From Metabacillus endolithicus (GTDB lineage: Bacteria; Bacillota; Bacilli; Bacillales; Bacillaceae), in contig NZ_CP095550.1 of the NCBI RefSeq assembly GCF_023078335.1, positions 3,330,001-3,394,000 of the forward strand: a stretch of 64,000 nt of DNA, written 5' to 3'. The notes beneath the pieces are model-generated. The model worked only from the letters and a program-made list of their open reading frames with translations, did no database searches and had not been told where the DNA came from. The position numbers and the translations under genes were made by a program. Of the stretch, positions 11,085 through 19,767 are shown piece after piece. Within the stretch, counting starts at the first letter, position 1; every line of letters starts with the position of its first letter.

Positions 11085-11227
11085 AAATATTCCTCCATCT
11101 GTTGAATTAGTAACTCAAGGAGAGAGAGATAAAACGACAGAGGAGTGTTCAAGGCAAAAAGAGCTTGAATGATCAGCTATCGTCTCACCTTCTCAGTCCC
11201 CGAAGAAATTGAAACTTCCACAAGATG

Positions 11228-11382
11228 TAGGTAGGTCTCCTGACTTATGCTCGTCCTACTATGAGTCCTTCCCATACCTAATATGTACAGTGGATTTCTC
11301 AATTCGTCACATTTACAGTTGCGGGGACAGTTCTGGAATTGCACCAGATTCCCTTTTCAGCCTTAATTGGCACCTGAATCTC
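11228..11382 (-). promoter_or_regulatory. Cobalamin (B12) riboswitch in the nrdAB leader
   Basis: On the minus strand the hallmarks appear in order: GGTGCC, then AAGGGAATCTGGTGCAATTC, CTGTCCCCGCAACTGTA (the B12-box core), the GGGAAGG segment, and CATAAGTCAGGAGACC close to the 3' end. These are the conserved blocks of the adenosylcobalamin riboswitch. It lies 144 bases upstream of nrdA in the same direction. The expression platform between 11227 and 11094 is not obvious. I see no clear terminator, so control of translation or a long-range helix is possible. Confidence 0.93.
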
Positions 11383-11536
11383 GTAAAATACAATATATAG
11401 TTTTGTGTTTTGGTTAATAAATCAATATATAGTTATAATTAGATATATTTCCATGATATAGCACATATACAAAATAATCAACCAATTGTTTTCGTTTGTC
11501 GAAAATTATCTAGATTGATAGAAACTTGTAAAGAAA

Positions 11537-16355: not shown

Positions 16356-16422
16356 GTATTTGTTTAGGATTATAGCGTATTTATGTTAACTACCTGGTGA
16401 AAAGTTGAGTAGAGCATAATTG

Positions 16423-17749
16423 TGTCTCGATAGTGGGGGGATCGGGACAAAGGAGGGTGTATGCATGGCGAATGTGTCTCGATAGTGGGAGAATCGGGAC
16501 AGAGGAAGTTGTGTGCATGGCGAATGTGTCTCGATAGTGGGGGAATCGAGACAGAGCAAGGGTGTGGGGTGGTGATTGTGTCCCGATAGCGAGAGAATCG
16601 GGACAATGGAAGTTGTGTGCATGGCGAATGTGTCTCGATAGTGGGAGAATCGGGACAGAGGAAGTTGTGCGCATGGCGAATGTGTCTCGATAGTGGGGGA
16701 ATCGAGACAGAGCAAGGGTGTGGGGTGGTGATTGTGTCCCGATAGCGAGAGAATCGGGACAATGGAAGTTGTGTGCATGGCGAATGTGTCTCGATAGTGG
16801 GAGAATCGGGACAGAGGAAGGTGTGCGCATGGCGAATGTGTCTCGATAGTGGGAGAATCGGGACAGAGGAAGGTGTGTGCATGGCGAATGTGTCTCGATA
16901 GTGGGGGAATCGAGACAGAGCAAGGGTGTGGGGTGGTGATTGTGTCCCGATAGCGAGAGAATCGGGACAATGGAAGTTGTGTGCATGGCGAATGTGTCTC
17001 GATAGTGGGAGAATCGGGACAGAGGAAGTTGTGTGCATGATGAATGTGTCTCGATAGTGGGGGAATCGAGACAGAGCAAGGGTGTGGGTTGGTGATTGTG
17101 TCTCGATAGTGGGGGAATCGGGACAGAGTAAGGGTGTGGGTTGGTGATTGTGTCCCGATAGCGGGAGAATCGGGACAAAGGAAATTCTGTGCATGGCGAA
17201 TGTGTCCCAATAGTGGGAGAATCGGGACAGAGCAACTTGTGTGCATGGCGAATGTGTCCCGATAGCGAGAGAATCGGGACAGAGGAAGTTGTGTGCATGT
17301 CGAATGTGTCTCGATAGTGGGAGAATCGGGACAATGGAAGGTGTGTGCATGTCGATTGTGTCTCGATAGTGGGAGAATCGGGACAGAGTAAGGTGTGCGC
17401 ATGGCGAATGTGTCTCGATAGTGGGAGAATCGGGACAGAGGAAGTTGTGTGCATGGCGAATGTGTCTCGATAGTGGGAGAATCGGGACAGAGGAAGTTGT
17501 GTACATGTCGATTGTGTCTCGATAGTGAGAGAATCGGGACAGAGGAAGTTGTGTGCATGTCGATTGTGTCCCGATAGCGAGAGAATCGGGACAATGGAAG
17601 TTGTGTGCATGACGAATGTGTCCCGATAGCGAGAGAATCGGGACAGAGCAACTTGTGTGCATGACGAATGTGTCCCGATAGTGAGAGAATCGGGACAAGG
17701 CAAAGTGTGTGCATGACGAATGTGTCCCGATAACGAGAAAATCTGTACA
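16423..17749. repeat. 26-copy, strictly 52-bp tandem repeat array with a conserved dyad
   Basis: Twenty-six units start at 16423, 16475, 16527 and so on to 17723, every 52 bases without a single indel. Each unit has a 27-bp dyad, TGTCYCGAT-N9-ATCGRGACA, and a 25-bp linker. The dyad occurs in three states: TCT with GGG (wobble on the plus-strand RNA), TCT with GAG (units at 16527, 16683, 16891, 17047) and CCC with GGG. Arm changes are therefore mostly compensated. Linkers fall into two classes, GAGGAAG...GCATGGCGAATG and GAGCAAGGGTG...GGTGATTG. A three-unit (156-bp) higher-order repeat is clear between 16475 and about 17098. The last unit is degenerate. All three minus-strand frames are open because 52 is not a multiple of three; I do not regard them as proteins. 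Confidence 0.95.
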
Positions 17750-18909: not shown

Positions 18910-19128
18910 TTATTGTTGAGTATAACCGCTCATAGATTGCTGAGCCATTGATACTAAACGCTTAGTGATTTCTCCACCTACAGAACCGTTAGCACGTGAA
19001 GTAGTTTCTCCACCAAGGTTAACACCGAATTCAGAAGCGATCTCATATTTCATTTGATCGATAGCTTGAGCTGCTCCTGGTACTACTAGTTGATTAGACG
19101 AATTGCTGTTGTTTGAACTTTGTGACAT
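18910..19128 (-). CDS. Alpha/beta-type small acid-soluble spore protein
   Basis: The 72-residue protein coats and protects spore-core DNA and is degraded by the GPR protease at germination. Family signatures are present: the GPR cleavage region [33 protein letters not shown] with conserved Glu-Phe and Gly-Ala/Ser-Arg-x-NGSVGGE elements, after an Asn/Ser-rich N-terminus. GAGGAG stands before the ATG. The gene has its own sigma-G promoter at 19276-19304 and a long leader (about 140 bases) that contains the tRNA-like element. Confidence 0.95.
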
Positions 19129-19156
19129 TTCTATTCATCTCCTCATAATAGTTTTA

Positions 19157-19229
19157 TGGTTGGGTTAGTTGGAGTTGCACCAACGTATGAAGAAAGCTTG
19201 TCCTTCATAGCCTTGCTCGGCGTAACCCA
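19157..19229 (-). other. tRNA-like cloverleaf in the SASP mRNA leader
   Basis: Read on the minus strand the 73 bases fold into a full cloverleaf. The acceptor is UGGGUUA with UAACCCA (7 bp), then discriminator A and an encoded CCA. The D-arm is GCC/GGC with a 6-base loop. The central arm is UAUGAAGGA with UUCUUCAUA (9 bp, one G-U). The T-arm is GUUGG/CCAAC with a 7-base loop UGCAACU. Order and many bases recall Bacillus tRNA-Gln (from memory). It lacks the two-base U8-A9 linker, the D-loop GG, the TUC motif and a normal 7-base anticodon loop, so it is not a decoding tRNA. It lies between the sigma-G promoter and the SASP ribosome site. Confidence 0.65.
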
Positions 19230-19275
19230 TTAATTTAAGTTGATGTGTTGTTTGTGTTTGTTTGTTGTTACTAAG

Positions 19276-19304
19276 TATTATGGATCTTTTTTTTGATTAT
19301 ATAC
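19276..19304 (-). promoter_or_regulatory. Sigma-G promoter of the SASP gene
   Basis: On the minus strand GTATA (19304-19300) and CATAATA (19282-19276) are 17 bases apart and match the forespore sigma-G consensus gnATR and cAtnnTA. This fits the sigma-G control of alpha/beta SASP genes in Bacillus. The predicted transcript starts near 19268, upstream of the tRNA-like fold. Confidence 0.75.
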
Positions 19305-19521: not shown

Positions 19522-19767
19522 ATGATGCATTTGTGTCCTTTATGTAATGGACTTGAGGAAAGGATCATACAATGTCCAAATTGTAAAACAGTTATGGAAG
19601 ATAAGGGGAAGGTAACGGATTATTTTGATGATTATAGCGCATATATGGATATTGATATGATGAAGATGTATGACGGGCAATTAACATCTCTTGAAGATCA
19701 TTTGTGTTTGCATTATTTTTATTGTCATAGTTGTCAGCATCAAGAAACAAATATTATTCAGGAATAG
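19522..19767 (+). CDS. Small zinc-ribbon protein
   Basis: An 81-residue cytoplasmic protein with two paired zinc-type motifs, CPLC and CPNC near the N-terminus and CHSC near the C-terminus, separated by an acidic, Tyr/Met-rich segment. Metal binding is likely. No enzymatic motif is visible and the family is not recognised. A GGA element lies eight bases before the ATG. It shares a bidirectional terminator with msmX. Confidence 0.7.
   Translation: MMHLCPLCNGLEERIIQCPNCKTVMEDKGKVTDYFDDYSAYMDIDMMKMYDGQLTSLEDHLCLHYFYCHSCQHQETNIIQE

Follow-up and report, generated by a model that had tools for sequence, protein, structure and literature searches.

The system closest to the RNA described here is yjdF, presented in the accessible part of its report as a translational leader homologous to tRNA-Lys (PMC9142559). 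In Bacillus cereus, the available text of another study reports a pseudo-tRNA, tRNAOther, from a single strain, where its one locus borders a genomic island (PMC3399842), and the sspB promoter is used as a sigma-G reporter in the available portion of a further paper (PMC5942855). A tRNA-like leader of a SASP mRNA was not found reported in the titles and abstract openings of the open-licence papers searched, and most subscription papers, with much older SASP work, lie outside that scope. Proteins of the alpha/beta SASP type form a protective coat on spore DNA, and mascRNA-type RNAs are tRNA-like processing signals.

The leader of an alpha/beta-type SASP gene in Metabacillus endolithicus holds a tRNA-Gln-like element, located in the 64,000-nt stretch of DNA analysed here (the window; NZ_CP095550.1) (Table 1). 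The original prediction had claimed a 73-base minus-strand cloverleaf with CCA, placed between a sigma-G promoter (GTATA-N17-CATAATA) and the ribosome site of the SASP gene. The cloverleaf was recovered exactly at 19229-19157 with every arm as stated, and its placement held, with the promoter upstream and the Shine-Dalgarno (SD) sequence and SASP ATG downstream. It is both the minimum free energy (MFE) and the centroid structure of a 77-nt segment (-26.1 kcal/mol, z -4.5), with none of 200 dinucleotide shuffles folding as well, and a longer 171-nt stretch containing the element gave a z of -3.6. The element is separated from the SASP ATG by 28 nt, SD included, and no terminator was seen by eye between element and SD at this locus.

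Table 1. Features of the SASP leader in the window (window coordinates).
Feature	Position	Strand	Detail or basis
Sigma-G-type -35, GTATA	19300..19304	-	sequence
Sigma-G-type -10, CATAATA, 17-nt spacer	19276..19282	-	promoter test on related leaders
A/C-rich lead-in 5' of the element	19230..19270	-	predicted transcribed (start inferred from the -10)
tRNA-Gln-like element, whole	19157..19229	-	73 nt; element model R2, 76.6 bits
Acceptor stem, 5' strand, TGGGTTA	19223..19229	-	pairs with 19161-19167
D-arm, GCC-GAGCAA-GGC	19210..19221	-	3 bp
Central arm, no anticodon loop	19186..19209	-	9 bp, 6-nt loop
T-arm, GTTGG-TGCAACT-CCAAC	19168..19184	-	5 bp, 7-nt loop
Acceptor stem, 3' strand, TAACCCA	19161..19167	-	7-bp acceptor
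Discriminator A and encoded CCA	19157..19160	-	
Shine-Dalgarno, GAGGAG	19139..19144	-	sequence
Alpha/beta-type SASP gene, 72 aa	18910..19128	-	Pfam PF00269, E 8.8e-23; ATG at 19128

The assignment of GTATA (19300..19304) as the -35 relies on the sigma-G consensus. Promoter, spacing and folding were compared across 133 leaders (of 147 parsed, those of 50-110 nt with a CCA end and passing an acceptor start filter, a choice that favours CCA). The promoter lies upstream of the fold, and not downstream of it as the original prediction had named among adverse outcomes: a sigma-G-like promoter test scored 5/5 in 100 of the 133, against 0.1% of dinucleotide shuffles, and found no promoter in 32. In the 101 leaders scoring at least 4, the element begins 19-73 nt after the -10 (median 42) and the pooled lead-ins are 43% A and 29% C. 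From the CCA to the start codon there are 26-109 nt (median 32), and in 130 of the 133 leaders this distance is 40 nt or less, too short a gap for a promoter to fit between element and gene. From the promoter position we infer that the element would be transcribed within the SASP mRNA.

Leaders of another kind were seen at sspA-type SASP genes (L066, L071, L077, L079, L081, L082, L084, and L287), which share a highly similar stretch, GAATGAAGCCATGTG...CATTCTATACTCACAAGGAGG, and follow a gene that by its look we take to be thiI. The stretch reads as a sigma-G promoter at the SD, so that sspA-type mRNAs would be almost leaderless, unlike that of the element-bearing gene, and a switch considered for these thiI-linked leaders was dropped on the same reading. 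Similar SASP genes also occur at G000:C1:4926205-4926387 (main contig) and G000:C2:135416-135598 (smaller second contig), where the matches cross a TAA stop.

The reading of the element as a working tRNA was rejected, as the original prediction had expected. ARAGORN made no tRNA call in the window or in 30 related loci; at gathering thresholds Rfam left the element unmatched in the window, and it is not among the 139 places in the genome that Rfam matches to tRNA; at E<=1 in five relatives the sole match on an element was to tRNA and scored 25.0 bits, where the cut-off is 29. The 9-bp central arm with its 6-nt loop differs from a functional anticodon arm (5-bp stem, 7-nt loop), and the D-loop GAGCAA and T-loop UGCAACU are likewise not those of a functional tRNA. 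The TUC loop, D-loop GG and anticodon loop said to be lacking are all absent; however, position 55 is the main departure of UGCAACU from the canonical T-loop consensus UUCRANU, and U54, C56, and A58 are retained.

Kinship to tRNA-Gln was assessed by comparing 128 elements (of the 147 parsed, those of 55-90 nt ending in CCA, which favours CCA) with the tRNAs called by ARAGORN in 30 tRNA loci of the M. endolithicus genome. The closest isotype was tRNA-Gln for 126 of the 128 whole elements, which bears out the proposed likeness to Bacillus tRNA-Gln, and for 127 when acceptor and T-arm were taken alone. For the D and central part it was closest in just 21 of the 128, and thus the middle has diverged. 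An arm CGGA...UCCG retained at L158 and L099 resembles the arm of B. subtilis tRNA-Gln. In the M. endolithicus genome, model R2 ranks the element above four matches of equal score, one of which was tested (L344) and is a tRNA-Gln, followed by an isolated tRNA-Gln and then by the short element of another SASP. The isolated tRNA-Gln (L348:1501-1576 (+)) has the 3' end GCTA, not GCCA. In a genome of another order (L314:1901-2614 (-)), an alpha/beta SASP gene is closely preceded by a tRNA cluster (... His, Gln, Cys) whose last gene but one is tRNA-Gln, offering a plausible, if unproven, picture of how capture of a tRNA-Gln could begin.

Compensatory changes in SASP leaders, sought in the original prediction, are present, and the fold is conserved and covarying. 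With 16 sequences aligned by MAFFT alone, an alignment that does not lean towards the model structure, double changes occur in 10 of 24 pairs, and there are 27 double-change cells against 9.9 when shuffled (0/500), where cells count sequences, not events. In a model-fitted alignment, which does lean that way (97 matches, 91 of them distinct), 94.3% of cells are paired, double changes affect 21 of 24 pairs, and there are 365 double-change cells against 101.6 when shuffled (0/500); the number falls to 50-65 when the partner is slid by a single base, and to 42-65 over all slid versions. The central arm is the helix richest in double changes in both alignments, and in the model-fitted one compensatory changes occur in all four helices and in many families; the acceptor, for example, changes from GGGUUA/UAACCC to GGACC./.GGUCC in L255, L257, and L267. 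Sequence comparison thus clearly points to a conserved, tRNA-Gln-derived cis RNA family with a structure kept by selection.

The acceptor stem belongs to the MFE structure in 131 of the 133 leaders for the element alone and in 97 with 40-nt flanks; it is lost with these flanks in 36 overall, including six of the 19 MFE structures that were printed. With a 25-nt lead-in, its pairing probability exceeds 0.8 in 61% of leaders. The mean unpaired probability of the SD has a median of just 0.50 over the 133 leaders, so that the SD is not wide open. A switch in which the element sequesters the SD was rejected, as in the 19 printed leaders a paired SD partners with the coding region or the lead-in; at L114 the spacer between SD and AUG pairs with the 5' strand of the element.

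Core positions were counted in 80 alignment rows whose selection did not depend on the CCA pattern. The T-loop has 7 nt in all 80, with U54 and A58 invariant and C56 in 78, and position 55 is G in 69 and U in 11. RCCA is retained in 75. The D-loop varies from 1 to 11 nt, with GG in 12, and the central arm from 11 to 30 nt. The CCA is lost in five rows, two of them second copies of tandem pairs, and is also missing in L034, L250, L357, and L360; it is thus not strictly needed. Tandem pairs of tRNA-like elements within one SASP leader were seen at L264:258-393(+), L271:160-300(-), and L277, and in L264 and L271 the first copy ends in GCCA and the second has no CCA.

In reduced forms of the element, the CCA, the acceptor stem and the T-arm with its UGCAANU loop persist. 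One such form, of 49-51 nt and lacking the central arm, belongs to a second SASP paralogue in Metabacillus; a three-arm drawing is its MFE structure in 4 of 11 sequences, and it has zero double changes because it hardly varies. Model R3, built from this form and searched in 299 genomes, gave nine loci besides those of the M. endolithicus genome, 9/9 of them before SASP genes (L363 being L031 again); by reading, seven are four-arm elements, L363 among these, and two have a 43-nt form (family f37, L361 and L362, identical 43-mers) with space just for acceptor, T-arm and ACCA. The two-helix fold of the 43-nt form is its MFE structure, but 18 of 200 shuffles equal it, so that its case lies in kinship and place, not in energy. 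In the short forms the stack of acceptor and T-arm comes to ~10-11 bp. Variants like these show which tRNA half is worth retaining.

A DNA search of 60 genomes (that of M. endolithicus and 59 relatives) gave matches in 20/20 other Metabacillus and 14 of 39 others, and at all 30 loci returned, own included, the element lies directly upstream of a SASP gene. A pattern scan from T-arm to CCA over 84,980 species genomes matched 82 contigs, 81 of which have a SASP within 330 nt downstream (phmmer), the sole exception being a Paraburkholderia record; a SASP is downstream in 78/78 other model-aligned loci. Automatic parsing yielded the 147 distinct elements with several loci mis-parsed, so the SASP count came from a separate parse, and L111, L171, L245, and L286 were read by hand. 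Holders among the 80 pattern matches listed with a name include Metabacillus, Priestia megaterium, Cytobacillus, Anoxybacillus, Parageobacillus, Rossellomorea, Niallia, Heyndrickxia, Neobacillus, and others, together with, from the B. subtilis group, halotolerans, mojavensis, spizizenii, tequilensis, and inaquosorum. In Bacillus spizizenii (L289) the element precedes the gene for MANQNSSNDLLVPG..., presumably sspB (sspB-type), and two other SASP leaders found in that genome are, by eye, without it. The much-studied sspB leader may therefore hold a regulatory RNA.

By a hand tally of checked loci, some form of the element occurs in at least 23 of 47 labelled families of the order. Fetched and checked loci were used for this purpose, as the raw model matches in 346 of 397 genomes are not an element count: tRNA-Gln-like matches (74-75 nt, several copies) score ~42-43 bits with model R1. 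Among the matches listed for model R2 in 398 genomes of the class, those outside the order are all 74-75 nt long and score no higher than 49.6 bits, and the ten such loci tested are all tRNA-Gln. The element was absent from 30 SASP loci (of 51 places) in 19 genomes, 15 of other orders and four of the same order without an earlier match; the strong match among those loci belongs to a genuine tRNA-Gln within a tRNA cluster, and a 20th genome of that set gave no SASP match. Searched with R3, the 299 genomes of the class yielded no match beyond the order, and viral contigs contained no exact pattern match. Within the sensitivity of the models used, the family looks confined to this order.

Several further features lie near the element or in related loci. 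A divergent small gene (window 19522-19767 (+), MMHLCPLCNGLE...), zinc-ribbon-like by eye and without a Pfam or NCBIfam match, has counterparts (CPLCNG) that lie upstream at 78 of the 115 distinct element loci whose flank is long enough, when all forms are pooled (100/144 before duplicate removal). At L361 such a gene is nearby with another SASP gene between, and at L362 none lies within the flank; L361:2711-2777 (+) also matches the Rfam Bacillaceae-1 RNA (55.9 bits), near the SASP gene with the 43-nt element and not on the element. Elsewhere in the window, a 52-bp tandem repeat of 25 copies (16421-17732) contains long overlapping ORFs that look spurious, and a cobalamin riboswitch (11213-11392 (-)), weakly matched by the element models at 18.6-19.9 bits, is the only Rfam match at gathering.

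The element probably controls the processing, retention or translation of the SASP message in the developing spore. The acceptor/T-arm half is the part of a tRNA by which RNase P, RNase Z, the CCA enzyme and EF-Tu grasp it in cells, and the reader of the element would most likely take this half. We tentatively prefer, at somewhat less than even confidence, a mechanism in which the tRNA machinery, RNase P first, recognises this half and leaves a structured 5' end. Embedded in an mRNA, the element has no 3' end, which would exclude EF-Tu and the CCA enzyme as readers, and as an encoded CCA blocks RNase Z in B. subtilis, RNase P would be the natural reader. Its cut at U+1 of the element would yield an mRNA with a paired 5'-P end that would be poorly accessible to RNase J1. 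The four-arm form has the features of an RNase P substrate (a ~12-bp acceptor/T stack, a T-loop and 3' RCCA), cleavage itself being a prediction; the conservation of T-loop and RCCA while D-loop and central arm vary supports the acceptor/T-arm reading, and the upstream promoter with its A/C-rich lead-in counts for RNase P.

Other observations count against recognition by RNase P. The stack of the short forms falls below the 12-bp ruler of the enzyme, the CCA is occasionally lost, position 55 is mostly G, and the GGGUUA acceptor is conserved beyond what RNase P alone would demand; the weakly supported short-form folds, and the retention of the acceptor with flanks in 97 of 133 leaders, also weigh against this explanation. 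A bolder proposal, which we consider possible but doubtful, is that the SASP mRNA is capped by a captured tRNA, with RNase P making the 5' end and the tRNA-derived end protecting the forespore mRNA. If true, a developmental mRNA would owe its 5' processing and its longevity to the pathway that matures tRNAs.

The main rival reading, rather unlikely in our estimation, is that the element is a constitutive tRNA-like translation enhancer that would bind the ribosome beside the SD (e.g., at the E-site/L1 region) and raise SASP initiation. SASPs are very abundant proteins, and a distance of 26-40 nt between element and AUG in nearly all leaders would suit such a role. In the accessible results of the yjdF study, cis-tRNA leaders, whether yjdF or grafted tRNAs, increased translation in vitro by 2- to 6.3-fold when placed upstream of an SD (PMC9142559). 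Those same results show a yjdF D-loop GG mutant near background, whereas GG is rare in the D-loops here, and an ACCA change of a cis-tRNA that mattered little, whereas RCCA is kept here; however, the cis-tRNA effect was uncorrelated with D- and T-loop sequence, which softens the loop objection (PMC9142559). Short forms without a central arm also fit poorly with a ribosome contact that depends on the L-shape. As for a decaying, functionless tRNA-Gln pseudogene, the clear kinship to tRNA-Gln and the lack of an ARAGORN call would agree with it, but compensatory changes in four helices across many families and the fixed SASP linkage leave it a negligible probability, and a neutral pseudogene is rejected by the covariation in both alignments.

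Mimicry-based control, of which E. coli thrS is an example, suggests a different role, in which the element would be a docking site for a protein or a component of the aminoacyl-tRNA system that switches SASP translation or decay in sporulation or outgrowth. This would account for an acceptor GGGUUA and a T-loop conserved beyond base pairing, and for the pair U1-A72, a feature of tRNA-Gln kept in 89 of the 91 distinct sequences of the model-fitted alignment. We nevertheless judge it improbable, as synthetases and EF-Tu need an anticodon or a free 3' end, both absent from the embedded element, and in none of the 19 printed folds was the SD itself seen to pair with the element. It is also conceivable, at a very low probability, that excision of the element from the SASP transcript releases a small tRNA-like RNA that acts elsewhere, in the manner of mascRNA; the complete tRNA-like end with CCA and the tandem elements, which occur in three genomes of one genus, would fit, yet the central arm is free to change in sequence and length, leaving little for a target in trans, excision would remove the leader, and the strict SASP linkage points to action in cis.

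Measured against known systems, the element shares with the T-box riboswitch a place in a Bacillota mRNA leader and a concern with tRNA, but the T-box reads a tRNA whereas the element imitates one; a T-box is marked by a specifier loop, a T-box sequence and a terminator/antiterminator, and the window has no Rfam T-box match and, by eye, no terminator between element and SD. Like pre-tRNA substrates of RNase P and mascRNA-type signals, it has a short lead-in, an acceptor/T-arm half, a T-loop and RCCA; unlike them, it runs directly into an SD and ORF and lacks an anticodon loop, and its cleavage is predicted. Unlike the SASP-leader element, tRNAOther has no stated link to a SASP mRNA in the available text (PMC3399842). 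Rfam 15 at gathering gave no match on the element in 20 relatives; yjdF in particular was not matched on it at gathering in the window and those relatives, or at E<=1 in five relatives. As in the accessible description of yjdF, a tRNA-homologous RNA is fixed 5' of the SD in a Bacillota mRNA, and a non-decoding cloverleaf carries D- and T-like loops (PMC9142559). The element differs from yjdF in being closest to tRNA-Gln rather than tRNA-Lys, in keeping RCCA, in its linkage to SASP genes, in the rarity of D-loop GG (12/80), and in the single nucleotide between acceptor and D-arm in the window element, where yjdF has a purine-rich J1/2. yjdF binds azaaromatic ligands and pairs its T-loop with the SD in the off state; no such pairing was seen in the 19 printed MFE folds here. 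The element has the properties of the broad class of tRNA-like cis-acting mRNA leaders, being covarying, tRNA-homologous and set between promoter and ribosome-binding site, with transcription predicted from the promoter. Post-transcriptional control in the forespore thereby becomes testable in Bacillus subtilis by ordinary leader mutants. The kind is thus already known, as tRNA-homologous mRNA leaders exemplified by yjdF, and the SASP element would be its second family, tied to one kind of gene.
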